From positions 1 through 32,005 of IMG/VR virus record IMGVR_UViG_3300032116_000849: DNA of 32,005 nucleotides; one strand, given 5' to 3'. The position numbers and the translations under genes were made by a program. This document shows positions 4,715-29,565 of this stretch, piece after piece; the stretch's first letter is position 1, and each line of letters starts with the position of its first letter. The stretch comes from a virus. The notes below the pieces were generated by a model. That model was not told the DNA's origin. It did not search any database and saw only the letters and a list, made by a program, of their open reading frames with translations.

Positions 4715-4721
4715 CCGCGCC

Positions 4722-6545
4722 TCACTGCTTCAAAAGCGGGTTGTTAGTGTCAACCTGTCCAGCCCCGCCGCCAAGCGGTATGTTAGCGCCAAGTGCAGCA
4801 TTGATTTCCCGAATTTTTGCTCTGCGGGCATCTTCGAAGACTTGCGGGTTCTTGGCGTTCATCGCCTTTATGTTCGCGCCAAGCCCCTTCTCCCACTCGC
4901 CCAACTCTCTCAAAGCCGCGACGTTGTTTCTACCTGCAGCGCCTTCCAAGCGCCCTGTAGCTTCAATTTCAACAAACGTCTTGAACCCCGCTTCAGTGAT
5001 AGGGATACCCAGCGTCCGCATCATCCTGATTTTTTCCGGCTCTCTACCAGCCTGCGCTGCCGCGAGACGAGCTTGACGTTCTGCTACAGCCAACTGCCCA
5101 CGTTGGATGTCCCGCTGTTCCGCACGATCAAGTTGAGTGGCGCGTTCTTTCTCGATACCAGAACGCAAGTCAGTGATCTTAAGTTGAGCTTCCGCAACCT
5201 TGATGTCAGCTTGGCGCTGCAGGTTTACGTCACCACTGCGATCCGCCACGCGCTTTTCAGCCAGTGCTTGATTGAGGTCCTCAATCGCTTTCTGCTCTTG
5301 GCTAGAAACTGCTTGCGCTTTCTGCAATTCAGCACGCTTCGCAGCACGTGCAGTGCCTGCACCCTTAGCAGCACCGCTAAGAACATCAAGAGCAGTCTTG
5401 CCGCCAGCAGCAGATCCCGCCATAGCAAGAAGCAAATCAGTTGGGTCTGCGCTTGCTGCTTGTGCAGCTTGCAACGCTGCTTGTCGGTCACGCTCGCGGC
5501 GTGCAGCAATATCCTGTGAAGACTTGTACGCGGCTTCACGCAGCTTCATCAGTTCAGGATCAGTCGTGCCTTGCTGACGGTATACATCTTGCACACCTCT
5601 GATGCCTGCAATACCCTTGGATTCAATGTCAGACAGCGTGTCAGGTCCAGGGGTTGACGGTTGTTCCGCAAGGAAGCCGAGTCCTTGACTCATGGCAGAG
5701 GGCTTATTGCCAGTGGGGTTTTGGACCTGCCGACGAGCCCTAGCGACTTGGATCTCGGGCACGGACATCATCGGGCTCTCAGGTGGCCCAAAAGGGAACA
5801 GCTTGCTAGTGTCCGTAGGCTGCGCGGCTGCGGCTGCGGCTGCGGCTGCGGTAGGAACTACAGCACGGGACGTCCCGCGCATTTCATCCATACGCTGTTC
5901 TCCTGTACGAGACAGCGGACGTAACACATTTTCTTTCAGCCAACGTAGACCACGAGGTATTGGACGCTCTGCCCGGGCTTCCTCCGCTTCGCGTTCTTTA
6001 CGCGCACGGTATTCATCCTCACTTTCCCCTGGTTCTTTATCTGCGCGGAGGGCATAGATAGGAATGTCCCCACTTACATCAATTCTATTTGGGTAGGGTA
6101 ATCCTGCTGGCCCAGTACCATTTGTAAACGCCACCGCTCCACCACCAGCATAGCCGTGCATCTCACCGCCGTATGCAGCCATGACGGGTTCTTCCATCTG
6201 CTCCGCAGCTTGCACAACTTGCGCCGCCACCGGGGGCTGCTGCTGCATCTGCTGGTTCTGCGCCATGACTTGCTGGCCCTGCATGGCCTGCGCCGTTTTA
6301 GCTGCCTTCTGCTTTTCAGCCAACGCCGACATCACTGCGTAGAGCGGAGGCCCGTCAGGGCGCGGGTTTAGCATCAATTGAACCAACTGCTGCATATGCA
6401 TTTGCGTCAACGGCCCAACCATAGCAGCAGGCGTAGCTGCGCCTTGCTGCGGCATCATTCCCGGCATCGGTTGTTGTTGGGCCTGACCCGGCATCGGGCC
6501 TTGCTGCCCCTGGGGGCCTCGCATCAGTGAAGCTACGCCAGCCAT
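4722..6545 (-). CDS. Gln/Pro/Ala-rich structural protein with long coiled coil and YAGGGAV motif
   Basis: A 607-residue protein of no recognised enzyme family. Residues 1-120 are rich in Gln, Met and Pro. Residues 125-139 carry the Gly-rich motif YGGEMHGYAGGGAV. A run of nine alanines follows near residue 235, encoded by a short hexanucleotide repeat. Residues about 330-505 are rich in Ala, Glu, Gln, Arg and Lys with heptad-like spacing, so a long helical coiled coil is likely. The ATG lies 3 bases after the preceding stop, with GGTGGGGG upstream. Its place between a repeat-rich protein and the giant peptidase protein suggests an internal or ejected virion component; that role is inferred from context only. 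Confidence 0.75.
   Translation of the reverse strand: MAGVASLMRGPQGQQGPMPGQAQQQPMPGMMPQQGAATPAAMVGPLTQMHMQQLVQLMLNPRPDGPPLYAVMSALAEKQKAAKTAQAMQGQQVMAQNQQMQQQPPVAAQVVQAAEQMEEPVMAAYGGEMHGYAGGGAVAFTNGTGPAGLPYPNRIDVSGDIPIYALRADKEPGESEDEYRARKEREAEEARAERPIPRGLRWLKENVLRPLSRTGEQRMDEMRGTSRAVVPTAAAAAAAAAQPTDTSKLFPFGPPESPMMSVPEIQVARARRQVQNPTGNKPSAMSQGLGFLAEQPSTPGPDTLSDIESKGIAGIRGVQDVYRQQGTTDPELMKLREAAYKSSQDIAARRERDRQAALQAAQAASADPTDLLLAMAGSAAGGKTALDVLSGAAKGAGTARAAKRAELQKAQAVSSQEQKAIEDLNQALAEKRVADRSGDVNLQRQADIKVAEAQLKITDLRSGIEKERATQLDRAEQRDIQRGQLAVAERQARLAAAQAGREPEKIRMMRTLGIPITEAGFKTFVEIEATGRLEGAAGRNNVAALRELGEWEKGLGANIKAMNAKNPQVFEDARRAKIREINAALGANIPLGGGAGQVDTNNPLLKQ
5826..5849. repeat. Four perfect copies of GGCTGC hexanucleotide, coding for alanine run
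   Basis: The plus strand reads GGCTGC four times without interruption. On the coding strand this gives alternating GCA and GCC alanine codons within a run of nine alanines. Gain or loss of units keeps the reading frame, so length variation would be tolerated. Confidence 0.8.
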
Positions 6546-6548
6546 TAT

Positions 6549-8498
6549 TTAACCCCCACCAAACAGCGCCTTGTACAGCGCCAAACCAGACAAACCACCG
6601 CCCAACGCGCCAGCGATACCCGACGTTCCAGAGTCATAAGGCCTAGCCTGCACAGGCAATCCTTGCATCAGGCTTTGCATGTACTGCGCTTGCTGCATCG
6701 GGTACTTCAAAGAATCTCGGAATTGCTCGTAGCCAAAGTCCAACGGCTGCTGAGCAATGTCACGTTGCACACCGCCAGCCCGCAGCAAAGACTCCAACCC
6801 TTGGAGTTGCGTACCGAACTGTGAAGTGCCTACACCACTTAGCGCCTGAGCAATCGCCTGCTGTTGACGCAGCGCATCCATGCCGTACTGAGCGCCGAAC
6901 TGCCGAGACCGCTCTGACGCCTCAGCGCCTTGCATACCGTACCGTGCCGCTGCTTCTGCCGCAGTCATCTGCTGACCGAAACCAAACTGCCGGGACTCTT
7001 CCGCTTGCCGAGCCGCTTGCAACGCCGCGTTCTGATTTGCTACCTGTGCCTGATACTGCGCAAGCTGGTTGGCCTTCTGCGCATCCAGACCGAACTGCGC
7101 TTGAATCTGTGCAGCGGTCATTTTCTGCCCAGAAGCAAACTGTCGGGACGCCTCTGCCGCCTGATCTGCACTCAGACCAAACTGAGCCTGCAAATTTTGC
7201 GTTTGCATTGCCTGTTGGGCTGCAAACTGCCTCTCTGCAGCAGTCTGCTGCTGCGCTTGAAGGCCCAGTCGAGCGCCTGTTTCCGCCGCCTGTGCGGCTT
7301 GAGAAGCTCCGTATTGCCGGGACATCTCTTCAGCTTTCTGCGCGTCCATCCCAAACTGGGTTTGGAGTTGTTCTGCTGTCAATGCCTGACCAGCGTTAAA
7401 CTGCCGCGCCGCTTCCTGAGCTTGCTGTGTGGACAGGCCGTACTTGGCCTGCATATCGCGGGAAGTCATCTCCTGCTGGGCACCAAACTGGCGGGATGTT
7501 TCCCCCATCTGCCGAGCTTGAAGCAACTGCCCCAAGCCTTGTTGACCGAATGTAGCGCCAAACTGACGAGAGCCTTCCGTTGCCCGCTGGGCTTCCATAC
7601 CAAGACCGGCTTCCGCAAGGCGCTGTTTTTGAGCGTTCTCGAACGCGTCTTGCAAACCTTTGGCGCGAATGTCACCAATCTGCGTACTCAGATTTCTCTG
7701 ACGCTCAGCCTCCATGATGGCTTGCCGAGAGCCACCAAACGCACCTGCTTGAGCCAGACGGGCTTGCTCTGCATTACGGCTGATGTCTGCTTGACGAGTA
7801 GCTTCACGCGCAGCAATGTCCGATACACCCCCGGTGTAGTCGCTCATGTAGTCTTGAACAGACTTGACCGGACCTAGACCTGTTTGGAATTGCGTGGAGT
7901 CATAGCGCTGACCGCCAACACCCTGAGTGAAGTCGGTATTCGGCTGGTAAGAGCTTGGCGCTTGAAATAGATTCTGGAACTGTGTAGCCGGTCCCGCCTG
8001 ATAGTCAAACCCTGAAGTAAACCTTCCTGTCTGATACGGCGAAGGTGCTTGATAACCTGACGTTGCTGTTTGCGGTTGGTACGCGCCGGGGCCTTGAAAC
8101 CTGTTAGCAAAACTTGTCGGTTGATACGCCTCTGGAGCTTGGTACTGCGAGAACACATCGCGGTTCTGCACTTGACCGTAAGACGGCATGCCTGACGGCT
8201 GATACGTGCCTGGGCCTTGATAGAAGTTCCCAAACAGCGCGGGCATATATCCCATGCCCTGAGCCTGCATGCCCGCTTGCGTGAGCATGTTGGTGGCAGT
8301 CTGGTACTGCGCCGGCTGTTGAAGCCCTGCAAGCCCTGTGAACGCAAGGTTCTGAAGCTGCGACGGATCAGCAAAGCGCTGACCAGTGAACGGCTGGAAC
8401 GGCAGGTTAGCCGCCGCCTGCCCACGAGACAAGTAGTCGTAGACGTAAGGCGCGAAGTTTGGGCTCAGTGTAGACTGAGAAGGATCAATGGTTGACAT
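6549..8498 (-). CDS. Repeat-rich Gln/Ala structural protein, probable internal virion protein
   Basis: A protein of about 649 residues. I chose the ATG at 8498, which overlaps the preceding stop as TGATG and has AGGA seven bases upstream; a GTG one codon earlier is possible. The N-terminal 30-60 residues carry an LSRGQAAANLPFQPFTGQRF segment of a type I recall from uncultured phages. Residues about 95-190 contain several PxxYQP or PxxYQ units. Residues about 337-536 hold a degenerate 29-residue tandem repeat beginning RQF/RQY and containing (F/Y)G(L/M)-x-x-QxA. The C-terminus is Gly-rich and hydrophobic (LGGGLSGLALYKALFGGG). Long helical Gln/Ala repeats suit a filamentous or ejectable internal protein, but this is inference. 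No enzymatic motif is seen. Confidence 0.75.
   Translation of the reverse strand: MSTIDPSQSTLSPNFAPYVYDYLSRGQAAANLPFQPFTGQRFADPSQLQNLAFTGLAGLQQPAQYQTATNMLTQAGMQAQGMGYMPALFGNFYQGPGTYQPSGMPSYGQVQNRDVFSQYQAPEAYQPTSFANRFQGPGAYQPQTATSGYQAPSPYQTGRFTSGFDYQAGPATQFQNLFQAPSSYQPNTDFTQGVGGQRYDSTQFQTGLGPVKSVQDYMSDYTGGVSDIAAREATRQADISRNAEQARLAQAGAFGGSRQAIMEAERQRNLSTQIGDIRAKGLQDAFENAQKQRLAEAGLGMEAQRATEGSRQFGATFGQQGLGQLLQARQMGETSRQFGAQQEMTSRDMQAKYGLSTQQAQEAARQFNAGQALTAEQLQTQFGMDAQKAEEMSRQYGASQAAQAAETGARLGLQAQQQTAAERQFAAQQAMQTQNLQAQFGLSADQAAEASRQFASGQKMTAAQIQAQFGLDAQKANQLAQYQAQVANQNAALQAARQAEESRQFGFGQQMTAAEAAARYGMQGAEASERSRQFGAQYGMDALRQQQAIAQALSGVGTSQFGTQLQGLESLLRAGGVQRDIAQQPLDFGYEQFRDSLKYPMQQAQYMQSLMQGLPVQARPYDSGTSGIAGALGGGLSGLALYKALFGGG
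6896..7493 (-). repeat. Degenerate 87-bp tandem repeats coding for 29-residue units
   Basis: Units begin RQF or RQY (for example RQFGAQQEM, RQFNAGQAL, RQYGASQAA, RQFAAQQAM, RQFASGQKM, RQFGFGQQM, RQFGAQYGM). The first four are spaced exactly 29 residues apart. One later spacing is longer because of an extra insert. The units share (F/Y)G(L/M) near the middle and Ala/Gln/Glu-rich helical ends. Confidence 0.8.
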
Positions 8499-10105
8499 CA
8501 CGCCTTCCTTTCAAGCGAATTCATCAGGGCGTAGAGTTTTTTGGTGTCGTGCCCTGGAGGGATGTAGGCTTCACCGTTGGAGACTCGCGCAGGCGTGACG
8601 CCGTTCTTCCCAATGATACCTGTGATGCCCCTGTCATCGGTGCCATTCCCTGGGGCGGAGATCATCTTTCCACCAAGAGACGCAATTCCTTGATGGCCTA
8701 GCTGGTCGGTTGCCTTTTTGGTGAAAACGAACCCGCCGTCTTCCATCGTCAACGGCCTGCCGCCTGCGTAGGCGCGTGCTTCACCACCTTGAGCAAACTT
8801 GTAGCCGTTCTCGCGCAAAGCCTGAAGTTGGGCGTCAGTCACACCCTGCGACTTCAGCATCGCAGGAGTGGCGTTATTGGCGTTAAACCAATCGCTTTTT
8901 TGCTTCGGACTGTAATTATCCCAATTGTCAGGGAGGCGAGCTTTCAGAACCGCCGCTTCGGTTTGAACGCTGTTTGGCGAAGCCCCCGTTGCAGGCAATA
9001 GATCATCTGGTAGCTGCGCGGCCAAAGTTTTTAGATACGCCCAATCAGATTCTTTTTGCGGACCAAACTGCTTTTCTGCCATCGCCCGCACTTCAGCATC
9101 AGTCAAACCACGCGCCAAATAATTTTCGTAAGTGGCGGCTTTGGCTTCAGGAGAATAGTCCTTTACCTGTTGACCAATACCAGTTGGTTTTGCAAGATTG
9201 CGTTGATATGCGGACTCAAGTGATTGTTTCTGCGTTGCAGATAAAGGCCCGTATTTGGCTTCCAACTGCCTGTAAGCTGAATCAGCGCTAAGCGATGTAC
9301 CTTCACCAACAGTTGCCGAAAAACCTCTGAGCGTTGAGTACTCATTCAGCATCTGTGCTGGGTCAGTCACAAGTGTTTTTGGCGGTCCAGTCAGTGCTCC
9401 GGGGGGAGGCCCGGAGGGAGCAGGAGTGCCAACAGGAGGTGGCGTAGTAATGCCGCCGACGGGAGGCGGAGCAGCAGGAGCCGCGATTCCAGTACCAACG
9501 CCAGCAAGGCGCGTCAGTTCATTCCAGTCTGTATCCGGTATAGCGCCATACATCGTCTCAGCAATGCGGCGAATCCTGTCTGGCCCCAACCCATACCCCG
9601 CCAGTTGCTTGTACAGATCAACCTTGGCTTGCACAGACATGCCCGTGCCAGGAGCCCCAGGTGCCGGAGCCGCAGCGGGGGGAGGAGGCGCAATAGTAGG
9701 CGCTCGGAATGGCGTGTAGTCAGGCGCTCCGCCTCCGGGTCCGGTGTACTCGGCCAACGGTCCATATGGCCCCTGAACCATCTTGCGCTGCAGTTGCGCC
9801 GCGCCTGGATAGGCCATAGTGGTGCCGCCACCAGAAGGCTCGGGTCGGTTAAGGAAGCCAAGCGCTGCACCGCCAAGACCTGCGATGCCTGCGGGGGAGG
9901 AAATACCTTGTATTAAATTCTTGGCCCAGGAAGGAATTGTGTTAATCCAACTTGTTGTGGCATTAACTGGGCTTCCACCAGGGCCTTGGGTTGAGGCTAT
10001 GTTTGGATACCTCGCCTCTAATCTTGTGGCTTCATCCGTGTAGTCATTTGATGTTGAATCAGTACCACCAAGGGAAAGCCAACCCAGATCGTCATCGTCA
10101 CCCAT
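8498..10105 (-). CDS. Phage structural protein with conserved C-terminal DGGFVF...ARVSNGEAYIP module
   Basis: A 535-residue protein starting at an ATG one base after the previous stop, with AGAGG upstream; its own stop overlaps the next ATG. An acidic N-terminus (GDDDD) is followed by a Gly/Ala-rich hydrophobic stretch (about 66-85) and long Pro/Ala linkers (about 130-245). Two similar helical modules occur at about 170-206 and 330-363, each of the form GL-x-x-x-x-(I/V)R-x-x-AE followed by (Y/F)G and DWxxLxxLA. The C-terminus has AQGGEARAYAGG, then DGGFVFTKKATDQLG, then ARVSNGEAYIPPGHD. I recall this last kind of module at the end of several phage virion proteins. The function is unknown; an internal virion or tail component is most likely from its neighbours. 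Confidence 0.75.
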   Translation of the reverse strand: MGDDDDLGWLSLGGTDSTSNDYTDEATRLEARYPNIASTQGPGGSPVNATTSWINTIPSWAKNLIQGISSPAGIAGLGGAALGFLNRPEPSGGGTTMAYPGAAQLQRKMVQGPYGPLAEYTGPGGGAPDYTPFRAPTIAPPPPAAAPAPGAPGTGMSVQAKVDLYKQLAGYGLGPDRIRRIAETMYGAIPDTDWNELTRLAGVGTGIAAPAAPPPVGGITTPPPVGTPAPSGPPPGALTGPPKTLVTDPAQMLNEYSTLRGFSATVGEGTSLSADSAYRQLEAKYGPLSATQKQSLESAYQRNLAKPTGIGQQVKDYSPEAKAATYENYLARGLTDAEVRAMAEKQFGPQKESDWAYLKTLAAQLPDDLLPATGASPNSVQTEAAVLKARLPDNWDNYSPKQKSDWFNANNATPAMLKSQGVTDAQLQALRENGYKFAQGGEARAYAGGRPLTMEDGGFVFTKKATDQLGHQGIASLGGKMISAPGNGTDDRGITGIIGKNGVTPARVSNGEAYIPPGHDTKKLYALMNSLERKA

Positions 10106-10106
10106 A

Positions 10107-11927
10107 TTAACCTCTTAATCCGTACATGAGTTCATAGCCAAGCGGCTGAATGTTAGCCAGTCGGTACTCTTCTTCCTGCTCAGGTCGCTGACCCTGCATA
10201 GCAAGTAGCAGCTTCATAAGATCTTCTGTGCTCATGCCGGGTTTTGCAGTGGTCTTTGTGCCGCCAGTAGTTTTTGTGCCGCCTACTGGGGCCGTTCCAG
10301 ACGTCCTGTCATCATCAGGCAGGACAGTGCCCGGAGTTGTGTCCGTCGGGCTACCGGGAGTGCGGTCAGGCTCTTCCATGAAGTCCCAGTCTGGGATGAT
10401 GACATCGTTTTTCGGCAGCGTGCCCGTTGTCGTGATTGTTTGCCGGTACAACTCAGGGAAGTAATTCTGCATCAACGTGTCGATGGTGCCGGGGTCGTCG
10501 ATGTTGGCCTCAAGGAACTTCGCCATCTCTTGCGGTGGCATTGACGTTTTGGGCGCGGTGTCGTAAGTTCCAGGGATGATGTCTGCCTCATCCCACTCAT
10601 CAACAATTTTGTCTAGCCCAGCGTAGTAGTCGCCGGGTTTGGTTTCATCTTTATACGGATCAAGCGCCCAGTCAGGAAGTGGGCTTGTTTCCGCGTCAGG
10701 ATCAAAATACGGATCAAGCGCCCAATCAGGTAGCGGGCTTGTTTCTGCATCAGGATCAAAATATCCTGGGTCCGCTCCGCCATATCCTGCAGATGCGGCT
10801 TGCCCCGACTTCAAAGCTGCTTTTCCGGTGGCCTTAATTTGCCCTTGCAAGTCGCGCATGAAGGAGTTGACAACGGCCTTGTCTATGTCCTTACCAAGAA
10901 TTCCTGCGCTGGCAGCAGATAGCACTGCGTTTTTGATCGGCCCAGGAACATCCTTGAGGTACTGTCCAAGCGTTGAGTTGGTGCCCTTGACAAGCAAATC
11001 TGTACCAGCACTCGCTGCGCCCCCTGCTGCGCCTGTGAGGATGGCGTCTAGAACACTGTCTCCAGTGATCACTGCCCCCACAGCACCGCGCCCAGCGCCT
11101 GTTACTGCACCGGAAACGATGTCACCAAAATTGCCGCCACCTACCAGCTTGCTGGCTTCTGAGCCTAACTGACCAATATACGGAGCGGCTACGGCACCGA
11201 GAGCACCTGCGCCCGCACCTCTGGCAAAACCGGAGCCAAAACTCCCCGTGCCTTGAGCGACGTTACCTGCTCCGCCAAGAGTCCCACTTATTGCCGCTTG
11301 CGTAAGTATTGGCGCAAGCGCAGGAGCCACCCCAGCGCTAATTAGTGCCGTCGAGGCCCAGCCTGTAAACGGCGCCGCCGCCATTGCAAGAAACTGCACA
11401 AGCTCCGGTGTCAAGTCGCTCGTAGACCCCCACCGAGGAACAATTACAGTTTTACCTGAGGCATCTTTTACTGCCTCAAACTCTGTCCATCCTTTGCCAG
11501 CAGCGGAGTACCCAAGACCGTAGCGGCCTGGATCTGATTGTTGCAAGTACTCCTGAGGGGCAGAGAATTCTTGCTGGCCTTTTGATCCAAACCCACCAAG
11601 GCGTCCAAATGTTTGATCACCGTAAGTTAGCTGCCCACGGTTTCTTGTAACTGTTTGCCAATCATCTACTGCATTTTCGCCGCCGTAACCAAGATTAACC
11701 AACTCCTCATACGGGGTTTCTTTAATTCCTATTTTTGACAGGTCAGTTATGCCGTAGTTTGCAAGGATCTGGGCAAGCTCATTGGCACGGTTGATACCCC
11801 TGATGTCAGGGTTGATTCCGTACTGCTTCCACTGCTGTGAAATTTGCGATGCCAATGGAGCCCACGCAGGAGTAGACGGAGTTCCGCCCACAATCTGGCG
11901 CAGTTCTTCTTCGGTCAGATCATCCAT
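10107..11927 (-). CDS. Large phage virion protein with Gly/Ala hydrophobic core and acidic duplicated segment
   Basis: A 606-residue protein. Residues about 178-310 are strongly Gly/Ala-rich and hydrophobic (ALISAGVAPALAPILTQAAI; later GAVTGAGRGAVGAVITG), a composition seen in proteins that enter or cross membranes during phage DNA ejection. Residues 389-424 are a perfect tandem duplication of an 18-residue acidic segment, YFDPDAETSPLPDWALDP. Thr/Pro-rich linkers follow, and the C-terminus ends in LANIQPLGYELMYGLRG, a tail I recall from related uncultured phages. The ATG at 11927 has AGGTGA upstream and lies 11 bases after the preceding stop. Membrane-active ejection protein is a reasonable guess, not shown. 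Confidence 0.72.
   Translation of the reverse strand: MDDLTEEELRQIVGGTPSTPAWAPLASQISQQWKQYGINPDIRGINRANELAQILANYGITDLSKIGIKETPYEELVNLGYGGENAVDDWQTVTRNRGQLTYGDQTFGRLGGFGSKGQQEFSAPQEYLQQSDPGRYGLGYSAAGKGWTEFEAVKDASGKTVIVPRWGSTSDLTPELVQFLAMAAAPFTGWASTALISAGVAPALAPILTQAAISGTLGGAGNVAQGTGSFGSGFARGAGAGALGAVAAPYIGQLGSEASKLVGGGNFGDIVSGAVTGAGRGAVGAVITGDSVLDAILTGAAGGAASAGTDLLVKGTNSTLGQYLKDVPGPIKNAVLSAASAGILGKDIDKAVVNSFMRDLQGQIKATGKAALKSGQAASAGYGGADPGYFDPDAETSPLPDWALDPYFDPDAETSPLPDWALDPYKDETKPGDYYAGLDKIVDEWDEADIIPGTYDTAPKTSMPPQEMAKFLEANIDDPGTIDTLMQNYFPELYRQTITTTGTLPKNDVIIPDWDFMEEPDRTPGSPTDTTPGTVLPDDDRTSGTAPVGGTKTTGGTKTTAKPGMSTEDLMKLLLAMQGQRPEQEEEYRLANIQPLGYELMYGLRG
10656..10763 (-). repeat. Two tandem 54-bp copies coding for an identical 18-residue acidic unit
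   Basis: The two units are identical in protein but differ at several third codon positions, for example TCAGGAAGT against TCAGGTAGC on the plus strand. The duplication is therefore not brand new, or the protein sequence is under selection. Confidence 0.85.
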
Positions 11928-13306: not shown

Positions 13307-15147
13307 TAGCTCTTTCTGCCATCAGGACGCAAATCGAGTCGCGGTGAGCCAAGCTGCCAAGCCACGCCCAGACCATCGGACGAAATCTTCATCGCCATCT
13401 GCCGCCCACGAACGCGTATGTTGACCTGCCCCGTGAACTGCTCCACCGGCACCGTGGCTGTGCGCGTGATGACCCCATTGTCTGAGCCGCCAAGCGATGC
13501 GGGGTTGTTGTACCCGGAGCCAGAGTTCTGCAGGGGGTAGAGCGTCAGCGTGGCGCTGGGAGAGCCGTTGGTAGACCCCCGGAACGTGATGTCAGGCAGC
13601 ACCCGCCAGATAAACGCCATGTTTTCACCATCGTCGATGTCAAACTCGGACGAAGTGATGTACGCGGGCAGGGCTACAGGCGTGCCCGTGGTGTTGTCGT
13701 CCACCCCGGCTTCTTGGTACAGCAGTTGATCGTCGTAGGCGGCGATGGGGAAGTTGCTGATGATGCTGGCGTCTATCCACGTTGTGCGTGCCATCGTGCC
13801 GTAGTACCAGATCTTCTCCAAGTAGTTGTAAACAACGTACTTGTCGGGAGAGGACGTATTGTTGTTTGCGGAGCAGTAGAACCACCACACCTCATTGAAC
13901 TGTTCAACAGTAGAAGCAAACACCTGCTCCCGCTGGTTCTCGTTAAAGTCGCTAAACACGTATTGCCGCAAATCGCAGGGGAGTGTTTGCACACGACCGT
14001 CGTAGACGTAAAACTTTTCTTCCCCCATCCAGTACGTGACACCAGCAGCGGTAGTCATGCCCCGGTCACTGATCAACGTGACGTTGTCTGCGAGAAGCTG
14101 TGAGCCCCAGACAATCGGAGGGCCGAGGTACTGCAGGGAGTAAAGCGAGATATCCGTCCAAACCAGAATTTCCTGCCGGACCTGCGCCACGCCGACGATT
14201 TCTGACCCGCGTGAAAGTGTCAAGCTGCCCGCTTGGTTGGTGGCAGCAGGGGTCCAGTTAGCGGCGCTTTCCTGATCGCTCCAGCGGATCAGCATCAGGT
14301 TCTGGTCGGCAGTGCCGTAGTCGTTGCACCCGAAGGCCAGCACAAAGCGTGAGGAGTCCGAAACAAGCAGAAGCCTCTGCACCGTTGGAACATCCGTAGC
14401 ACCGGTCAGTGAAGTCAAGTTCACACCGCGTGTGGATAGCCCGGAAGAGTTGTCCCAGTAGTACATCGGCCCGTCCTTGGGGCCAAAGATCAGGTCTTCA
14501 CCAAAGTTCTGCTGGTTCCACACCCGCAAGCCTTCAAGTGACGTAGTGCCAATACCCCAAGCGCCACCACCCCAAGGGCCAGCGCCCCAGCCTGCCAGAG
14601 GTGTTTGAGTGGCAGGGCCTGAGTTGATCTGGTATGCGGCAGTGACCGTGCCGCCACCCGTGGCGGTGGAGGAGGCGTTGCTGCTGGCCGTGATGGTGTA
14701 GTTGTCGATGTCTACTACCGTGACCTGATACTCGCCGTTCAGCGTCAAGCCGCCGACAGCAGAGGCCCCGGAGAAAGTGACAAAGTCTCCGGTAAGGCAC
14801 CCGTGAGCCACATCCAGCACGTTGACCGTAGGCAGTCCGCTGGAGGTCGTGAACGGGTTGGTCAGCGTAGCAGTAGCGCGAATGGGCGTGATGTCAAAGT
14901 ACGCACCGCCGTACATGATGTAGAACTTGAGGTTCGTGCCTACACCCAACAGCGAAGACCACGGCCACAAAGAACGCGCTACACCATCAAACGTGTTTAC
15001 GTTAGATAGCGGCTCCCAGCCGCCAATCTTTTCAGGGAACCCACTTCTAAAACGAACTTTGTCGCTGTCATACCAGCCTCCTTCTGCCGTGTAGCGCGTT
15101 CCTTCTTTCCAAAGTCCTGGCTTCAATTGTATTTTTTTAAGAGGCAT
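13306..15147 (-). CDS. Tail hub/nozzle-like protein resembling P22 gp10 family
   Basis: A 613-residue protein. I place the start at the ATG at 15147 (MPLKKIQLKPGLWKEGTRYT), which has a GGAG element about 8 bases upstream; an in-frame ATG 48 bases earlier lies inside the upstream endonuclease gene and is less likely. Conserved features are EGGWYDSDKVRFRSGFPEKI at the N-terminus, then repeated W- and Y-rich beta segments such as YWDNSSG, LIRWSDQESAANW, YWMGEEKFYVYDGR and VWWFYCSANN. An inserted beta domain (about residues 105-185, AHGCLTGDFVTFSG) is common in this family. Repeated W/Y beta segments suggest a beta-propeller like the podovirus tail protein P22 gp10 or T7 gp12. Assignment to tail hub/nozzle is by architecture and context; a search would be needed for certainty. 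Confidence 0.7.
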   Translation of the reverse strand: MPLKKIQLKPGLWKEGTRYTAEGGWYDSDKVRFRSGFPEKIGGWEPLSNVNTFDGVARSLWPWSSLLGVGTNLKFYIMYGGAYFDITPIRATATLTNPFTTSSGLPTVNVLDVAHGCLTGDFVTFSGASAVGGLTLNGEYQVTVVDIDNYTITASSNASSTATGGGTVTAAYQINSGPATQTPLAGWGAGPWGGGAWGIGTTSLEGLRVWNQQNFGEDLIFGPKDGPMYYWDNSSGLSTRGVNLTSLTGATDVPTVQRLLLVSDSSRFVLAFGCNDYGTADQNLMLIRWSDQESAANWTPAATNQAGSLTLSRGSEIVGVAQVRQEILVWTDISLYSLQYLGPPIVWGSQLLADNVTLISDRGMTTAAGVTYWMGEEKFYVYDGRVQTLPCDLRQYVFSDFNENQREQVFASTVEQFNEVWWFYCSANNNTSSPDKYVVYNYLEKIWYYGTMARTTWIDASIISNFPIAAYDDQLLYQEAGVDDNTTGTPVALPAYITSSEFDIDDGENMAFIWRVLPDITFRGSTNGSPSATLTLYPLQNSGSGYNNPASLGGSDNGVITRTATVPVEQFTGQVNIRVRGRQMAMKISSDGLGVAWQLGSPRLDLRPDGRKS

Positions 15148-15862
15148 TGTGTTTCTCCAAACGTTTTTGTTCCCAATAACGTTTTTTGGCTTCACTTAGT
15201 TTTAACTTTGTTTCAGAAGAAACATTAGCTTTAGCCAACCTTAATTTTTCCAAAGTTTCTGGCGTGTGTTTTTTTCCAGTCTGCGCAATGCGTTGTTTTT
15301 CTTTTTCTACTTCTGTTAAAGGTCTGCGAGTTTTACCTAATTGCCTAGCAGTTACTGCTTTACCAAAACTCTCAGGACGCTTTAATCCTTTACCTGCGTC
15401 GCTAATTTTACGCCGCCACTCTTCTGGAAGTGCTCCGCGTTTTACGCCAAGTTTTTTCTGCCTAATTTTTTCACGGGTCTCTTCAGATGCGGGTTTTCTT
15501 TCAGTAAGATTCCACTGTTTAATAGCCGCAATATGCTTTGCCGAAATTGTTTTGCCCTTGTGTGTTTGGCTAATTTTTTTTCTAATTTCTGGCGTGTACA
15601 AAATGGCACCAGCAACATTTAAATTGTAGCAAGGCACACTTTGAGCAAACATCGCTTTAATAATTGCAATCTCAAAGTCTCTACACACTTCGTATGTGTT
15701 CCGTGTTACAACTTCTCGCGTAAAGTCTTGTGGTCGCTCACGATATTCCTTAAGCAGGTGCTTAGAAGACGATACATAACCATCGTCCGGTCGTCCTTTG
15801 TGCATGCCTACGTACAACTTGCTAGTTTTATGGTCTGTCCAACAGTAGACAAAAGTATCCAT
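15137..15862 (-). CDS. GIY-YIG homing endonuclease with NUMOD-type DNA-binding repeats
   Basis: A 241-residue protein. The ATG at 15862 is chosen because GAGGCG precedes it and the upstream gene stops 8 bases before; a longer in-frame start would run into that gene. The N-terminus FVYCWTDHKTSKLYVGMHKG matches the GIY-YIG layout (VYC and LYVG). A conserved Glu follows in RDFEIAII, the usual metal-binding position. From residue about 90 on, repeated basic helix motifs (KKISQTHKGKTIS, KIRQKKLGVKRG, KISDAGKGLKR, AQTGKKHTPETLEKLRLAK) match NUMOD3-like DNA-binding modules. The gene is visibly richer in A and T than its neighbours. Its end overlaps the tail gene start by 11 bases. Such enzymes nick or cut DNA to spread their own gene among phages. 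Confidence 0.88.
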   Translation of the reverse strand: MDTFVYCWTDHKTSKLYVGMHKGRPDDGYVSSSKHLLKEYRERPQDFTREVVTRNTYEVCRDFEIAIIKAMFAQSVPCYNLNVAGAILYTPEIRKKISQTHKGKTISAKHIAAIKQWNLTERKPASEETREKIRQKKLGVKRGALPEEWRRKISDAGKGLKRPESFGKAVTARQLGKTRRPLTEVEKEKQRIAQTGKKHTPETLEKLRLAKANVSSETKLKLSEAKKRYWEQKRLEKHNAS

Positions 15863-15869
15863 ATACGCC

Positions 15870-16244
15870 TCACTTACCTGCTGCCTTGCGCGAGTAAAAC
15901 AGGGTACGGTCACCAAACAGGTAGAACCCCACTGCAGCGGCAAAGTTGTCTACGCTATCGTTTGTTTGCCCGTTAAGCGTCATCATGGCCCAAGTGAGCA
16001 ACACAATTGCAGCCACTCCTGGCCGCATCAAGCGCACGATGGCCTCTACCCAGGGATATGAGGGGTTGGACCCGCCCGCCTCGTTCAGCGCCTTGAACAT
16101 ATCAAGGTCGAACTGCCGCATCTTGACGTACTCATCGACGTTGACGGGCTTGTAGCTGTCGGTCTGAATAAATTTGCCGATGAGTGACTTGCCGAGGTCA
16201 ACTATCAGCGGGCCGAAGGCAGCTAGGACGGTCATGGGGTCCAT
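15870..16244 (-). CDS. Small membrane protein, probable holin of the 3-TM type
   Basis: A 124-residue protein directly downstream of the muramidase gene, with one base between stop and ATG and GGAGA seven bases upstream. An N-terminal hydrophobic segment (residues about 5-25, VLAAFGPLIVDLGKSLIGKF) is followed by a soluble helix and WVEAIVRLMRPGVAAIVLLTW (a membrane segment at about 72-90) and a third hydrophobic segment near FAAAVGFYLFG (about 100-110). The pattern of a short amphipathic region, an R-P-containing turn and two late membrane segments resembles the 3-TM holin family (PF11351). Adjacency to the muramidase supports a holin that lets the lysin reach the wall. The membrane topology is inferred by eye. 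Confidence 0.7.
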   Translation of the reverse strand: MDPMTVLAAFGPLIVDLGKSLIGKFIQTDSYKPVNVDEYVKMRQFDLDMFKALNEAGGSNPSYPWVEAIVRLMRPGVAAIVLLTWAMMTLNGQTNDSVDNFAAAVGFYLFGDRTLFYSRKAAGK

Positions 16245-17213: not shown

Positions 17214-19406
17214 TCAGTTGGATTCCAACGCCTCAACACGGGCGCGGAGGTCGGTGATGAGGGCTTGCTGTTCTTGGATGCACTTCATCAGCGCGTATTG
17301 CAGGTCGGTCTGGTAGATGCTCAGGCGCTGCTTGGGCTCGTCTGCTGTGCCCCAGTTACTCTCCATGACCAACTCAGGCGCGACGGCTTGAACGTCCTGC
17401 GCCACCACGCCCAGCGTCAGGCCGGGATCGTCTTCCGATTGGTCGATGTACTCAAAGGTCTGCACGGGGATCGCGCAGATGGTGTCGAGATAAGACTTGG
17501 CCGGGGCGAAGTTGGTCTTCTCGCGGCGGTCGGACAGGTTGACGTTGTTGGCGCTGTAGTTTGCTAGGCCGCCGTTGGAACGGATAGAGGCGCGTTGAGT
17601 GGCACCACCAAAACACCTGACGAAGAAAGAATCAGTGGCATTGGGGTCTACAGTCAAATCAACATACAGACCATAAGCGCCCGATACAGCAGTTGAAGTG
17701 TTTGTTAAGCGAACTGTGTCAGAATTGTTGGTCTGATAGAACTCATGGTACGAAGCTGTGCTTCCGGCATACGTCCCCGTATTACTCGCCTTAAAGTACC
17801 CCCCGCTGGTGATGCGGGCGCGTTCGGCGCTGCCGGTCAAGTCATAAAACGCAAGTGCACCGGCGCTGTTACGAATGCTCCAGTTGTTTGTGTTTTGGTA
17901 CAGGCGAAGCTCAGGAGTACCAGCACCGCCGATGATGTCGGCAAAGGTTTCCAGCCGTGCGCCGCCGTTGACGCTGAGTTTTTCCAACCCAACAACTGCG
18001 GTGCGGTTGACCAACAAATTCCCACTCGCATCCAGCGTCATCGCCTGCGTGAAGCTGATCGCGTTGCCTGCGGTGCCGGAGGGGGCGGTGTACCATTGGT
18101 GGCCAGAAACCGATGCGTTGTAACGAGAGGCGGCTGCACTTACGACATAGCTGAACGTATTAGTGCTCGACTCGTATGCATTGCATAGCATGTTTGCCGA
18201 GCCGTTTGCTTGCTGACCAAAAGACGTTGTGGACAGCACTTGCAAGTATCTGCCTGCACCAATTGCACTCGGCGTCACCCCCAAGCCGAGGTTGCCGGAG
18301 GAGTCGAGGGTGGCGTTAATAGCCCCACCAACCCCCCTAAAGTAAAGCGGCGAACCTTGTATTGACAACTGCACCGTAGCACTGCCAGCATCGTTTAGTG
18401 CTGACAAACGCATATCCCCACTACCGCCTGTAACTACGTTCAAATTTTCATTTGTTCCTGTTTTGACCGTCAACTTACCAGCAGGAGAACTCGTCCCAAT
18501 CCCCAGACCTGTGGAGGTCAGGCGCATGCCTTCTATTCCGTCGGCATACCCGGCCACATAGGAACCATCAATAACGATAGGCACCCGCGCCGCGCCTGTT
18601 CTGTTGTACCCAAGAATGCGCCCAACCCCAGCAAGCGCACCGTAAGACAGTTCAATGCCAGCCCCGGAACTGGGAGCCGTAGCTCCTTGGAAAGCACCGC
18701 CGCCAGAAGTGATGAATCCGTTAGTGCCGCTAAAAACAAGGTCTGTCCCGCTCGTCGCCACCTTGCTGCCGTTGAGGTACAGGACGCCGTTGGCGGTGCC
18801 CGCTGAAAGCGTCGGGTTCCCTCCGAGCGTCAAGCTCGTCCCGTCAAACGTCAGGTTGGAAGACCCAGTCAGCACCTTGGATGCATTCAGGTACTGGACC
18901 TGATTCGCTGTGCCAGCAGACAAGGTGGGGTTCGCGGCGAACGTCGCGGTTCCGCCAACAGACAAAGCTCCGCTCAGGGTCAGTGCCCCGGCAGAGTTAA
19001 ACATCTCCACCACATTGGTCCCGTCGCAGTACAGGAACTTGTACTGGCCCGCAGGAACTGCAATCCCGGTGCCGCTTGGCGTCTTCAGCGTCAGGGCAAA
19101 GCCGCCCGTCGTGTCGTTCCTGAACACGTAGAACTTGCTGACTGCAGGGCAGATGACGTTCTTGGCCTCTCCAGGCGCACCTGTCGCCAGGATGAACATC
19201 CGTCGCGCTTCATCCGACGTGCCTGAGTTGTTGCTCAGTGTGTACGCTACACCTGCTCCGCCCCAGGTAGAGATCGAAGCCGTACCGGCTACGGCAGCAT
19301 CTAAAAGCTCCGTGATACCCGTGTTTACGGTATTTCCCCACTGGCCTGCAAGTTCACCAGTAGCCGGAAGAGTCAGACGAAGCGAGGTGGTGTATGAAGA
19401 AGGCAT
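17214..19406 (-). CDS. Tail fibre with C-terminal S74 intramolecular chaperone
   Basis: A 730-residue protein. The N-terminus (residues 1-45, SLRLTLPATGELAGQWGNTV) is a module I recall at the start of many phage fibre proteins. The middle has repeated beta-strand motifs such as NPTLSAGTAN-x-V-x-YLN (twice) and Gly/Ser/Thr-rich segments. The C-terminal 110 residues contain NLSDRREKTNF and the segments LGVVAQDVQAVAPELV and LSIYQTDLQYALMKCIQEQQ, the peptidase S74 chaperone layout. Ser625 and Lys630 match the catalytic pair of the S-D-x-R-x-K motif. Family knowledge: the chaperone trimerises the fibre, then cuts itself off. A terminal coiled coil (LITDLRARVEALES) supports trimerisation. TGAGG precedes the ATG. 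Confidence 0.9.
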   Translation of the reverse strand: MPSSYTTSLRLTLPATGELAGQWGNTVNTGITELLDAAVAGTASISTWGGAGVAYTLSNNSGTSDEARRMFILATGAPGEAKNVICPAVSKFYVFRNDTTGGFALTLKTPSGTGIAVPAGQYKFLYCDGTNVVEMFNSAGALTLSGALSVGGTATFAANPTLSAGTANQVQYLNASKVLTGSSNLTFDGTSLTLGGNPTLSAGTANGVLYLNGSKVATSGTDLVFSGTNGFITSGGGAFQGATAPSSGAGIELSYGALAGVGRILGYNRTGAARVPIVIDGSYVAGYADGIEGMRLTSTGLGIGTSSPAGKLTVKTGTNENLNVVTGGSGDMRLSALNDAGSATVQLSIQGSPLYFRGVGGAINATLDSSGNLGLGVTPSAIGAGRYLQVLSTTSFGQQANGSANMLCNAYESSTNTFSYVVSAAASRYNASVSGHQWYTAPSGTAGNAISFTQAMTLDASGNLLVNRTAVVGLEKLSVNGGARLETFADIIGGAGTPELRLYQNTNNWSIRNSAGALAFYDLTGSAERARITSGGYFKASNTGTYAGSTASYHEFYQTNNSDTVRLTNTSTAVSGAYGLYVDLTVDPNATDSFFVRCFGGATQRASIRSNGGLANYSANNVNLSDRREKTNFAPAKSYLDTICAIPVQTFEYIDQSEDDPGLTLGVVAQDVQAVAPELVMESNWGTADEPKQRLSIYQTDLQYALMKCIQEQQALITDLRARVEALESN

Positions 19407-24885: not shown

Positions 24886-25506
24886 TTAAATGACTTTATT
24901 ACCTTTTGCGATATTGGCTTTTGCCGGGATTACCTGCAAATTCCAAGGTACGTGTAATCCAGAAACACTTCGCCCCCGTAAAGGAACTACATGATCAACA
25001 TGCCATGTAAAGCCAAACATTTTTGTACGTTGTTTTGCAAGGGCGTACGCTTCTCTTATGAGCCACAACTCGTCTTTTGAGAGCCAAACCGGAGTTCTTT
25101 TTAGTTTATCCGATCTTCTCTTTGCTGTACTTGCGTTTTTAGCATCTGGGTGCTTTTGCCTGTGCCGATTTGCGTAAACACTGCGCTTTTCTGGGTTTTG
25201 TAAAAGCCAAGCCTGCGTTTTTGCATACAGCACATCTTTTGTTTTTTCGTAGTACGTTTTACCGCGCAGCTTTTTCTTTTCTACATTATCTTCGTTTTGA
25301 ACTAGCTTTTGGTAATCTTTTTTCCTTTGAGAGGATGTGCGCTCTTTATTTTTGTTTCTATTTGCGTTTAACGTATTTTTGGCGCAATCTACACACGCGC
25401 CGGATACCCGCCGCAGGCCCTCTAACTCAGGGTGTTTAACGCACACGGACCCAAAGCATGTAGGTAGTCCTTGTGCTTTGGCTGCTTGTCGTGTTAGTTT
25501 TTCCAT
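24886..25506 (-). CDS. HNH homing endonuclease with N-terminal zinc-binding motif
   Basis: A 206-residue protein starting at an ATG that overlaps the upstream stop by one base (TAATG). The C-terminal 45 residues carry the HNH site: HVDHVVPLRGRSVSGLHVPW followed by NLQVIPAKANIAKGN, with His169, Asp171, His172, Asn189 and Asn198 in the expected spacing. The N-terminus has a C17...C22/H25...C38-x-x-C41 pattern that could bind zinc and DNA. The middle is very rich in Lys, Arg, Asn and Gln. The gene is visibly more AT-rich than its neighbours, as expected for a recently acquired mobile endonuclease. It would cut DNA near its own insertion point in a phage that lacks it. Confidence 0.9.
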   Translation of the reverse strand: MEKLTRQAAKAQGLPTCFGSVCVKHPELEGLRRVSGACVDCAKNTLNANRNKNKERTSSQRKKDYQKLVQNEDNVEKKKLRGKTYYEKTKDVLYAKTQAWLLQNPEKRSVYANRHRQKHPDAKNASTAKRRSDKLKRTPVWLSKDELWLIREAYALAKQRTKMFGFTWHVDHVVPLRGRSVSGLHVPWNLQVIPAKANIAKGNKVI

Positions 25507-26156
25507 TAACGCACCGGCACTCTTACCTGTCCGCTACGATAAGCGTCCATCCTATTTTTACCGTCACCGAGGTTCTTTAGCAACTCCATAGACTGGCCGT
25601 ATTCCTTGTCCATCATCGCCACAATGTCCTGCTCCTGCTTCATGAACCGGGCAGCTTCGACCATCACTGCGTTAAACAACGCAGAGTCAAAGTTGTCACC
25701 AAGCCATGACGTACCCGCAGTCACGATGCTGACTGGGTAGTAGAAGTAGTGAAGCTCCGCTGTGAGCCCAGCACTGGGCGTGGGGCCAAGGATGAGCGTT
25801 AACTCTGTCAGAGTGGCGCTGTCCGGGCCAAACAGGGCGTAATACTTCGGGGTCCCCGTCGTTGACGGGTTCGGAAACGCCGAGCGGATGAAGTTCACAT
25901 CCTTGTTCAGCAGGTACTCGTAGTTCCCGGAGCCGTCGATGACTGCAAGGCTGAAAACAGACAAAAAGTCTGTTGGCGCGGCAAGGTATTGGTTGCCAGA
26001 GGTCAACGTGCCCGTGACGTTCTTGCGCAACGCAGGAAGCTGCACCGAGTTGTAAATACGCTGCTCAGCCAACTGCGTGAGCGTGGCGAAGTCAGTAGAC
26101 GAGAAAGTGTTCTCGGTACTGTCCTCTACAGCGGTCTTCAACTGGGTGTAGTTCAC
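25506..26156 (-). CDS. Phage adaptor-like protein (DUF6682 type), head-to-tail joining
   Basis: A 216-residue protein with a GTG start; no in-frame ATG lies upstream before a stop. Conserved blocks: NYTQLKTAVEDSTENTF, LAEQRIYNSVQLPALRKNVT, GNQYLAAPTDFLSVFSLAV, YEYLLNKDVNFIRSAFPNPS, GTPKYYALFGPD, LILGPTPSAGLTAELHYFYY and SWLGDNFDSALFNAVMVEAA. I recognise this set as the phage adaptor family (DUF6682), proteins sitting at the portal-tail junction. The HNH endonuclease gene follows at once. Confidence 0.8.
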   Translation of the reverse strand: MNYTQLKTAVEDSTENTFSSTDFATLTQLAEQRIYNSVQLPALRKNVTGTLTSGNQYLAAPTDFLSVFSLAVIDGSGNYEYLLNKDVNFIRSAFPNPSTTGTPKYYALFGPDSATLTELTLILGPTPSAGLTAELHYFYYPVSIVTAGTSWLGDNFDSALFNAVMVEAARFMKQEQDIVAMMDKEYGQSMELLKNLGDGKNRMDAYRSGQVRVPVR

Positions 26157-26979: not shown

Positions 26980-27675
26980 TCAGCTTATGAACATCTGGCG
27001 CGGGACGAACCGCACCGCACTCTTATCTCTATCTTCCGTCGAAGCGAGGTCCCAGGCTTCGTCGTATTGCTGTTTCAAGACCTGCATACGCTCCATCGCA
27101 CCAGGGATCTTCATTGACAGGTAATACGCCAACCCTGCCACCAAGCAGGGGATGAAGCGGAACGGGACATCCTGCGTGTACGTACCACCGGCACCAGCGT
27201 CTTGGATGCGGCGCAGTCTCCAGTACACAAACTGGTAGTTGTTCGTCTGATCCGGCACAGGCCACACCGTGATGGTTGGCGTGGGGGCTTGGCGGTTGAT
27301 CCAGACTTGGATTGGACGAGCCTGCTGCAGCTTGTTGGGGATCGACGAGTAGGTAGAAACACTGATGCGCGTGATGGTCAGATCGACCTGGGTGGAGACA
27401 TTCCCTGCCCCCGTGCGGATCACATGCTCAATGAGGTCTACCGTGTCGTTCGGCAGGTTGTATGTGGCCGTGCCCTGGGTCAGATTGATCGAGCCTTGCT
27501 CAACAGTCCAGAGGTTGATACCCCGGTTGGCCCAGTCTGCAAACAGCAGGTTCATTGACCGCCGTGCGGTCTTCAGGTCATAGCCCGTGCGAAGCTCTGC
27601 ACCACAGCGCTCAAAGGCTTCCTCAACGTATTCGTTGAGGTCAAGATTGAACGTGGTAGTGTTAGAGGTTGTCAT
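26980..27675 (-). CDS. Head-tail adaptor/connector-like protein
   Basis: 231 residues. Conserved blocks: LNEYVEEAFERCGAELRTGY, LKTARRSMNLLFADWANRGI, NLWTVEQGSINL, TVDLIEHVIRTG, WPVPDQTNNYQFVYWRLRRI, VPFRFIPCLVAGLAYYLSMK and ASTEDRDKSAVRFVPRQMF. I recognise this protein family in tailed phages; its fold and position (after capsid genes, before tail genes) fit a connector ring such as P22 gp4. Two different adaptor-like genes exist here (also the one at 25506), so each may form one ring. ATG 3 bases after the FG-rich gene stop. Confidence 0.75.
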   Translation of the reverse strand: MTTSNTTTFNLDLNEYVEEAFERCGAELRTGYDLKTARRSMNLLFADWANRGINLWTVEQGSINLTQGTATYNLPNDTVDLIEHVIRTGAGNVSTQVDLTITRISVSTYSSIPNKLQQARPIQVWINRQAPTPTITVWPVPDQTNNYQFVYWRLRRIQDAGAGGTYTQDVPFRFIPCLVAGLAYYLSMKIPGAMERMQVLKQQYDEAWDLASTEDRDKSAVRFVPRQMFIS

Positions 27676-27678
27676 TGT

Positions 27679-29316
27679 TTATCCCAACATTGCCCGCCCT
27701 TGAGGGCTGTTTACGCCAAAACCTTGCAATTGTTGTAGTAAAACTTGTTGCTCTTGCCTTTGTGCAGGGCTCATATTGCGCATGTTTTCGCGTGCAGACC
27801 TTGCATTTTCCGCGCCCATTCCGCTGTCACCAAAAGGGTTAAATGGTCTTTGTATCGGCATCCCAAACTGAGGCCCCATCATCGGGTTGAACCCAAGGCC
27901 ACCGATGCCGCCGAACATGGGTTGGCGTGAACCAAACCCTGGGCCTATAGACATATTGTCTACGCCCCTGTTCATGCCGCTGTCAACAGGAGTCATTGCC
28001 CCCATCATTGGTGAAATAGTGTATGTTTCTCCAGCATCAATACGGTCGCCTTTAACCATATCCGAAGCGGTTCTATACTTTTTACCTGTTTGTGAAGATA
28101 CTAGCGTCCCGCTAGGGTCGACGTAAGTATTTTCTTTACGTGCTGCTTGAGGAGCTGTAGCCTGTGTTTGCGGCGATGCCTGCTGCCCGTACTGCCTTTG
28201 ATACGCCAGCGCATCAGCAGACGTGATTTTCCCGTCCTTGTTCAGATCGTACTGCATGTCTTGAGGCGTCTTGCCTACTGCCATGCTTAGGATATCTTGT
28301 GCGGAACGCTGAGGACCGGTGAATGGGGACTGCGGCTGTTGCGCAGTCGGAGAAAACGGGTTTGTTTTTTCGTATTCGTTTAGTTTATTAAAGTATGTCT
28401 TGAAGCCGCTTAGGTAATCTCCGTAGATTTTATCGTACTGCGCTTTTAATGCAGGATCGCCACCGGCAAACTCGCTATAACTAAACGGATTGGGGTTGGC
28501 TTTTTTAAACGCTTCTAGTGCCTCATTTGATTTGTTATATGCAACACCTTCTGGGGTTTGATCTGCCCACTGCTTTTGTTTTTGCTGCCAATCACCAAAT
28601 CCTGGAGTTTCTGTAACTGTTGGCATCCACAGCGCGGGCACTTGCGGCTGCGAATTTGCCATGCGCTCCATGTTGCGCATATCTTGCTCACGGCGCTGCC
28701 GCATCTCTGGCGGCATTTGAAGTCCACCGCGATACATCATGTCCATCGGGGGGTTGTAGCCTTGACTTTCTTGCATCTGCCTTGCCAGATCCTGCCGCTT
28801 CTGTTGGAACCCCTTAAATCCTTCACTGCCTTCCCAGGCTTTCTGCGCGTTTTGTAGCGCTTGATACTCAGGAATTTTTTCTATCAGAGAGTTCAATTCG
28901 GCGTCTTGCGCCCGGACTTGCGCGTGGAAAGAATTTGGTTGTTGGGGTTGGAACGGTTGTGGTTGGAACTGCTGTTGCTGCTGGTACGGGTTGAACCCAC
29001 CCATTGGCATGCCAAACCCTTGGCCCATCATGGGGTTGAACCCAAGACTTCCAATCCCGCCAAACATCGGGTTATACCCACCGCCAAAACCACCAAAACC
29101 TTGCGGTTGAAAACTCCCGCCAAACCCGCCAAACGCTTGGCCTCCACCGAACCCAAAGCCCTGCCCTCCGCCAAAGCCACCAAAGCCTTGACCCCCGCCA
29201 AAACTTTGCTGTGGCATCTGGTAACCACCAAAGCCACCGAAGCCGCCCTGAGGCTGCTGCATGGACTGGCTAGAACTAAAGTTTTGCCTAGCAGGTTGGT
29301 AGAAGGGCTGCGACAT
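27679..29316 (-). CDS. FG-rich structural protein with dockerin-like calcium loop
   Basis: 545 residues. Residues 25-80 are Gly/Phe repeats (GGFGGFGG, GFGGFGG), then a Gln-rich run (110-125). Residues 140-330 are helical and charged. Residues 357-368 form an EF-hand-like loop, D-L-N-K-D-G-K-I-T-S-A-D, followed by a helix (ALAYQRQYG); this matches one dockerin type I loop, but a dockerin normally has two. Residues 466-487 repeat a 22-residue segment found at 83-104 (both contain PMFGGIG and GFNPMM). The C-terminus is again Gly/Met/Pro-rich, ending in GVNSPQGRAMLG. I do not recognise a family. A flexible virion component or condensate-forming protein is possible. Confidence 0.7.
   Translation of the reverse strand: MSQPFYQPARQNFSSSQSMQQPQGGFGGFGGYQMPQQSFGGGQGFGGFGGGQGFGFGGGQAFGGFGGSFQPQGFGGFGGGYNPMFGGIGSLGFNPMMGQGFGMPMGGFNPYQQQQQFQPQPFQPQQPNSFHAQVRAQDAELNSLIEKIPEYQALQNAQKAWEGSEGFKGFQQKRQDLARQMQESQGYNPPMDMMYRGGLQMPPEMRQRREQDMRNMERMANSQPQVPALWMPTVTETPGFGDWQQKQKQWADQTPEGVAYNKSNEALEAFKKANPNPFSYSEFAGGDPALKAQYDKIYGDYLSGFKTYFNKLNEYEKTNPFSPTAQQPQSPFTGPQRSAQDILSMAVGKTPQDMQYDLNKDGKITSADALAYQRQYGQQASPQTQATAPQAARKENTYVDPSGTLVSSQTGKKYRTASDMVKGDRIDAGETYTISPMMGAMTPVDSGMNRGVDNMSIGPGFGSRQPMFGGIGGLGFNPMMGPQFGMPIQRPFNPFGDSGMGAENARSARENMRNMSPAQRQEQQVLLQQLQGFGVNSPQGRAMLG
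27856..27921 (-). repeat. Second copy of 22-codon module of FG-rich gene
   Basis: This segment codes for a 22-residue unit with PMFGGIGG and GFNPMM near the C-terminus of the FG-rich protein. A partner copy lies at 29005-29070 near its N-terminus. Confidence 0.8.
28213..28248 (-). other. Codons for a single EF-hand/dockerin-like calcium-binding loop
   Basis: The twelve codons encode D at loop positions 1, 5 and 12, N at 3 and G at 6, with I at 8, as in calcium-binding loops. No second loop is seen in the same protein. Confidence 0.65.
29005..29070 (-). repeat. First copy of 22-codon module of FG-rich gene
   Basis: Codes for residues 83-104 of the FG-rich protein, PMFGGIGS and GFNPMM included. 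It differs from the copy at 27856-27921 at several third positions and a few residues. Confidence 0.8.
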
Positions 29317-29319
29317 CAG

Positions 29320-29565
29320 TTACTTCCCTGCGGTCTTGGCAGACTGCTTGAACGCTTTGGCAGTAGGAGCGCCGGAAGTACCCGGCCTGCGCATTGCTTC
29401 ACCCGATCCTGCGGCAATGCGTTTACGCTTGGCATGGATGTTGGCGTAAAGCCCCGTGGGGCCACCCTCTGCATAGAGTTCGGTCGGAACATCAGCGTCT
29501 TTCCGCATCACCGCTTTAGGTAGCTTCTTGGGGTTTACGGCACCCATGCCGCGACAATTTCTCAC
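29320..29565 (-). CDS. Small basic phage protein (YANIHAKRKRIAAGSGE family)
   Basis: 81 residues from a GTG that overlaps the preceding stop by 4 bases (GTGA), with AAAGGGA upstream; an ATG 18 bases later is an alternative start. The conserved block GLYANIHAKRKRIAAGSGE, then MRRPGTSGAPTAKAFKQSAK, matches a small phage family found in head-gene neighbourhoods. Many Lys and Arg residues suggest nucleic acid binding; not shown. AEGGP precedes the block. Confidence 0.7.
   Translation of the reverse strand: MRNCRGMGAVNPKKLPKAVMRKDADVPTELYAEGGPTGLYANIHAKRKRIAAGSGEAMRRPGTSGAPTAKAFKQSAKTAGK

Follow-up and report, generated by a model that had tools for sequence, protein, structure and literature searches.

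A predicted half-dockerin module shared by otherwise unlike structural-region proteins of uncultured phages, one of them rich in FG dipeptides

A short module resembling one half of a dockerin is common to otherwise unlike phage proteins encoded in the virion structural region, and this is the more general finding of an analysis centered on a single FG-rich protein. The protein is encoded on the minus strand at positions 27679–29316 of a 32,005-base IMG/VR virus record from an uncultured phage; the whole of this stretch is referred to here as the window. FG tract and calcium-type loop are separate elements, each of them recurrent in phages, and their combination in this protein is a local one. 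That the half-dockerin occurs in otherwise unlike proteins encoded beside capsid, portal and adaptor genes suggests a reusable, calcium-stabilized peg for fastening virion parts. For the protein itself, we tentatively favor, with a confidence somewhat short of even, an accessory component of the phage head or neck in which a flexible, sticky tract is joined to a calcium-stabilized docking peg.

The ORF begins with an ATG, is intact over its 545 codons, and has an identical copy in the contig L002. All the features of the protein described here lie on the minus strand. An FG-rich, low-complexity tract (residues 24–106; 28999–29247) includes the first copy of a repeated module (residues 83–105; 29002–29070), which is also found in two related phages, L004 and L005. 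It is followed by a conserved region (residues 129–185; 28762–28932) that is predicted to be helical and is 72–76% identical to L004 and L005. The next 278 or so residues (186–463; 27928–28761) are an insertion relative to these two relatives, and hold a further helical region (240–318) and the half-dockerin module of about 48 residues (334–381; 28174–28317). The second copy of the repeated module (residues 466–488; 27853–27921) then leads into a conserved C-terminus (residues 489–545, MGAENARSAREN...GVNSPQ; 27682–27852), of which residues 495–545 are 100% identical in L004 and 61% identical in L168. A weak Pfam hit to Com_YlbF over the helical stretch at residues 139–227 was set aside, as its 16.8 bits fall below the cut-off of 23.9.

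The whole protein had no match by tblastn among cultured phages, no relative in the genome collection and no family in PHROGs, and its full-length model gave no significant Foldseek match. The module alone fared little better: against cultured phages it returned only matches at E 0.6, to an E. coli phage tail fiber, and against BFVD nothing significant. There is thus no characterized homologue at hand. Neither virion dockerins of phages nor phage proteins rich in FG came up in the literature that was searched, an absence that counts as weak evidence.

The core of the module is a single D-x-N-x-D-G-x-I-x-x-x-D loop, DLNKDGKITSAD (D357-L-N-K-D-G-K-I-T-S-A-D368; 28213–28248), just as it had been noticed when the sequence was first read. 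At the composition of this protein the pattern is expected 6e-5 times, and it appeared in 2 of 20,000 shuffles. Residues 334–381 match a profile of 23 aligned modules with an E-value of 4.8e-28, the window sequence being itself one of the 23 rows. Besides the window, 26 records of uncultured phages contain the module, the relatives being up to 73% identical, and the shared stretch reads S-A-x-D-I-L-x-M-A-V-G-x-x-P-x-D-L-x-Y-D-x-N-x-D-G-(K/R)-I-T-S-A-D-A-L. The sequence-only reading had listed a lack of conservation of the loop aspartates in related phages among the results that would refute it, but they are conserved: D1, N3, D5, G6 and D12 of the loop are invariant in all 23 sequences. Conservation between otherwise unlike proteins also extends to both helices and to the linker motif DIL.MAVG..P.D.

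Dockerins are the plug half of cellulosome assembly. The likeness of the phage module to them is seen in several comparisons. The AlphaFold model of the module has a pLDDT of 93–95 over its core; in the full-length model, made with four sequences only, the same region is at about 35–43. In VIA-align all 14 of the matches listed for the module model are dockerins, the best being 1ohz_B (46 residues aligned at an rmsd of 2.2, with Z 4.7; a Z under 8 is modest). Foldseek also placed dockerins on top, with weak E-values of about 0.5–1 (0.47 at best) as expected at a length of about 45 residues. Among solved sequences, the module profile matched best to 2mte (CelS, 1.4e-6) and 1daq (endoglucanase SS, 1.5e-6), and in the genome collection it picked up one archaeal and one Ruminococcus protein. 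The archaeal protein, L106, has two loops and aligns with the phage module over helix 1, the linker and loop 2 (50% identity over 34 residues). At the position of its first loop, where L106 has DCNGDTKLDERD, the window has SPFTGPQRSAQD, with ligands 1, 3 and 5 lost.

By sequence and predicted fold, then, the module is a half-dockerin, that is, a dockerin in which the first calcium loop is lost and its helix retained. The earlier description of the loop as dockerin-like holds for the sequence and for the predicted fold, but what is present is only half a dockerin, with one loop and both helices. Like type I dockerins (PF00404; 1ohz chain B, 2mte), the module has a D-x-N-x-D-G-x-(I/V)-x-x-x-D loop and, in its predicted fold, two helices in the dockerin arrangement with a linker between them. 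Unlike them, it lacks the first calcium loop and is carried by phage proteins. Its PF00404 score is 17.5 bits in the window and 14.7–17.9 in the other module proteins, against a gathering cut-off of 22.9. With one loop and a score below the cut-off, it is not classed as a type I dockerin and is better called a variant. Single-loop EF-hand-like calcium sites, as in proteins with a DxDxDG motif, also have one calcium-type loop, but the phage loop sits within a conserved helix–linker–loop–helix frame, and in structure this frame matches mainly dockerins rather than ordinary EF-hands. The search for a cohesin-like partner that had been proposed for the phage gave none: cohesin (PF00963) was not found in 19 of the virus records, which may be fragments. 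The partner, if there is any, is probably something else.

The proteins that carry the module in other phages have little else in common. One is lysine-rich (L085), one collagen-like (L086) and one a coiled coil (L088), and several are very long (L090, L091, L093–L097). The module may be N-terminal, internal or near the C-terminus, and it also occurs in phage proteins that have no FG repeats. Some proteins have two half-dockerin modules (L090:5497–6144, L100 and L114).

Among the loci with readable gene context, which do not include L095, L096, L099, L114, L115 and L122, many of the module genes lie within the portal–capsid–adaptor block. The module gene touches a gene for an SU10-type adaptor in the window, in L086/L087 and in L110, and in L088 the adaptor gene follows within 2 kb; in L089, nearly the same phage as L088, a capsid gene lies upstream. 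Further module genes come directly after the capsid gene (L085), directly after the portal gene (L102 and L125) or close to it (L100), or between the terminase and portal genes (L091). In L090, L097, L101 and L116 an SU10-type adaptor lies some kilobases upstream of the module gene. Since the proteins that carry the module differ, the shared gene position is not simply that of one inherited gene.

In the window, downstream of the FG gene and after a gap of 3 bases, comes a gene for an SU10-type adaptor protein of 231 residues (26980–27675, minus strand; Pfam PF24175, 2.9e-11), then a gene for a zinc-ribbon-like protein and one for a second protein of the SU10_adaptor family (25506–26156, minus strand; PF24175, 7.9e-21). 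The next gene upstream encodes a small protein, phrog_16028 (29320–29565, minus strand; 5.4e-24), which is one of several small proteins on this side; in L002 and L004 the small-protein genes are preceded by those for a DUF6321 protein and the major capsid protein. With capsid upstream in these two contigs and adaptor downstream, the FG gene lies in the capsid-to-adaptor interval. Further along, there are genes for an endolysin, for a tail fiber with an S74 chaperone (17214–19406) and for structural proteins of the virion. The position of the gene, which is indirect evidence, makes it likely that the 545-residue protein is located in the virion, as the sequence-only reading had supposed.

The other element of the protein is its FG tract. 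The richness in FG that had been remarked on for the N-terminus is real: residues 1–130 contain 13 FG dipeptides, as compared to 6.3 ± 1.9 after composition-preserving shuffling, and a count of 13 was reached in only 2 of 5000 shuffles. The tract has a pLDDT of about 30–43 in the full-length model and no secondary structure. With its dense FG/GF dipeptides and disordered chain, it resembles the FG-repeat nucleoporins and other Gly/Phe-rich low-complexity proteins; it differs from them in being viral and in sharing no sequence family. The module reported to repeat near both ends of the protein was found again, with 23 residues in each copy and the sequence PMFGGIG(S/G)LGFNPMMG..FGMP(M/I). At the DNA level the two copies are identical at 54 of 72 positions, and more of their codon differences are synonymous than change the amino acid. 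This makes it probable that the duplication is an old one in which the amino acids have been kept. L004 has three occurrences of the module core, GFNPMMG, and L005 has two.

A comparison of residues 1–106 between the window and L004 (104 codons), the one pair of sequences in which it could be made, gave dN 0.077 and dS 1.08. The resulting dN/dS of 0.07 points to strong purifying selection on the FG tract, and rules out that the tract is a neutral product of slippage.

L002 and L003 come from the same phage as the window, or nearly so. The closest relatives apart from these, L004 (328 residues; 94% identity to the window protein in the best segment) and L005 (220 residues), share the N-terminus, the FG tract, the repeated module and the helical region, and lack residues from about 186 to 463, including the loop; their helical region runs straight into the second repeated module. 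In L168 only the N-terminus and C-terminus are in common with the 545-residue protein. The first reading of the sequence had remarked on the combination of FG repeats and loop. Both are indeed present here, but the combination is not fixed, as the FG tract and the repeated module occur without the loop in L004 and L005 and the loop is found elsewhere without FG. The L003 copy has a peculiarity of its own (L003:988–3175): beyond residue 511 the FG gene runs out in another frame, and the adaptor has no start of its own. Some 140 bases seem to be missing here, through a deletion or an assembly error.

The 3′ part of the gene has a different history from the rest. Over the last 68 codons the window and L004 have a dS of 0.02, as against about 1 for the remainder of the FG gene. 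The nearly identical segment (window 27682–27870 and 27556–27675; L004 3530–3865) covers the end of the FG gene together with about 120 bases at the start of the adaptor gene, and these adaptor bases are identical in both. Given the low divergence, the 3′ part is read as a recent exchange by recombination, the edge of which falls within the repeated module.

Of the 62 nearest adaptor loci for which 1 kb or more of upstream sequence is available, only 1 (L004) has a comparable FG gene. The FG gene is therefore optional, and a role as a core gene is ruled out. As the half-dockerin is missing in the closest relatives and the FG gene in most near ones, neither part is essential. Nevertheless, many other phages proved to have FG-rich genes when they were scanned with the GFNPMMG pattern. 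Of the 66 loci that are informative, 44 have an SU10-type adaptor no more than 1.1 kb downstream, in most cases encoded by the very next gene; the pattern was taken from the query itself, and the adaptor position is independent of it. FG-rich proteins encoded before SU10-type adaptors thus form a recurrent class in uncultured phages. At L165:775–2736, a GFNPMMG-repeat protein of 653 residues is encoded before an SU10-type adaptor and has a stretch that looks like a Hint/intein domain (CPSPEEHIQLANN...HPYFV...).

In the tentative reading of the protein as an accessory head or neck component, the N-terminal FG/GFNPMMG tract would be a flexible, self-sticky, low-complexity arm. The half-dockerin would be a peg, stabilized by calcium, that fastens the protein to a partner in the virion; the most plausible candidates are the proteins of adaptor, portal and capsid, the genes of which adjoin the module-bearing genes. 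The main rival takes the half-dockerin as a calcium-stabilized folding element only, which rigidifies one spot in a long and mostly disordered virion protein and docks on nothing. Structural stabilization by a single calcium loop like this one is known from many proteins, and such a role would agree with there being one loop instead of two, no cohesin found, and a module whose place differs between the proteins that carry it. However, a bare metal loop needs less than what is conserved here, namely both helices and the linker motif, and we consider this rival rather unlikely, if serious. About equally doubtful, on the side of docking, is a wider proposal that the one-loop dockerin is a general calcium-dependent plug taken up by phages, through which FG-rich, collagen-like, coiled-coil and lysine-rich carriers dock on a common portal, adaptor or capsid site, in an assembly like that of cohesin and dockerin inside virions, with a receptor other than cohesin. 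A single-loop dockerin on unlike phage proteins would represent a new way to attach interchangeable virion parts, possibly under calcium control, and the half-dockerin offers a concrete target for binding tests.

The remaining explanations concern mostly the FG tract. The protein might be packaged within the head, to be ejected together with the DNA, its FG/GFNPMMG tract then lining or sealing a channel. Its gene does lie in the structural block and adjoins the adaptor gene, and the SU10 ejection proteins gp20–24 leave the head at genome release (PMC9509320). The genes of gp20–24 are not adjacent to that of the adaptor gp11, however, and the long downstream proteins of the window (2–11927) look like better candidates from their size and position, which makes ejection improbable for the FG protein. 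The tract could instead be displayed as a glycine-rich adhesin or surface decoration that binds the host surface or debris. The variable number and arrangement of repeats, the optional presence of the gene and the recombination in the repeat resemble host-range genes, and L086 has a collagen-like fiber on the half-dockerin. In SU10, gp10 is encoded between the capsid gp9 and the adaptor gp11. Its predicted fold resembles those of a minor capsid protein and of the head fiber of phi29, and the virion map does not show it (PMC9509320). The FG gene is like that of gp10, and the phi29-type head fiber/epsilon15 minor capsid type in general, in lying between major capsid and adaptor, but no immunoglobulin-like domain is seen in the 545-residue protein, which is low-complexity and helical with only a few short strands (397–407) in a low-confidence model. 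Against display there are the purifying selection on the tract and the separate tail-fiber gene with its S74 chaperone, and an adhesin is likewise improbable. Least probable of all, and very unlikely in our view, is the original suggestion of a condensate, in which the tract would drive phase separation during assembly and be tuned by calcium: the composition is FG/GF-rich, Q-rich and disordered, but low complexity alone is no predictor of condensation in vivo, and most near relatives do without the FG gene.

A few observations on the surrounding genes may be added. For the small proteins phrog_16028 (window 29320–29565) and DUF6321 (L002:1553–1828), the matches in several PHROGs are to the ends, or to segments, of phage proteins that are much larger, in one case to residues 846–928 of 928. 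For this reason the two look like mobile modules of virion-region proteins. Genes for endonuclease VII-like, HNH-like or homing endonucleases (window 24886–25506 and 15137–15943; L004:4451–5065; L005:1477–2163) differ in their place around the adaptor and structural genes between related phages. At the other end of the window, an ORF of 1571 residues (2–4714) runs off the edge and weakly matches virion RNA polymerase (phrog_2206, 1.4e-7).
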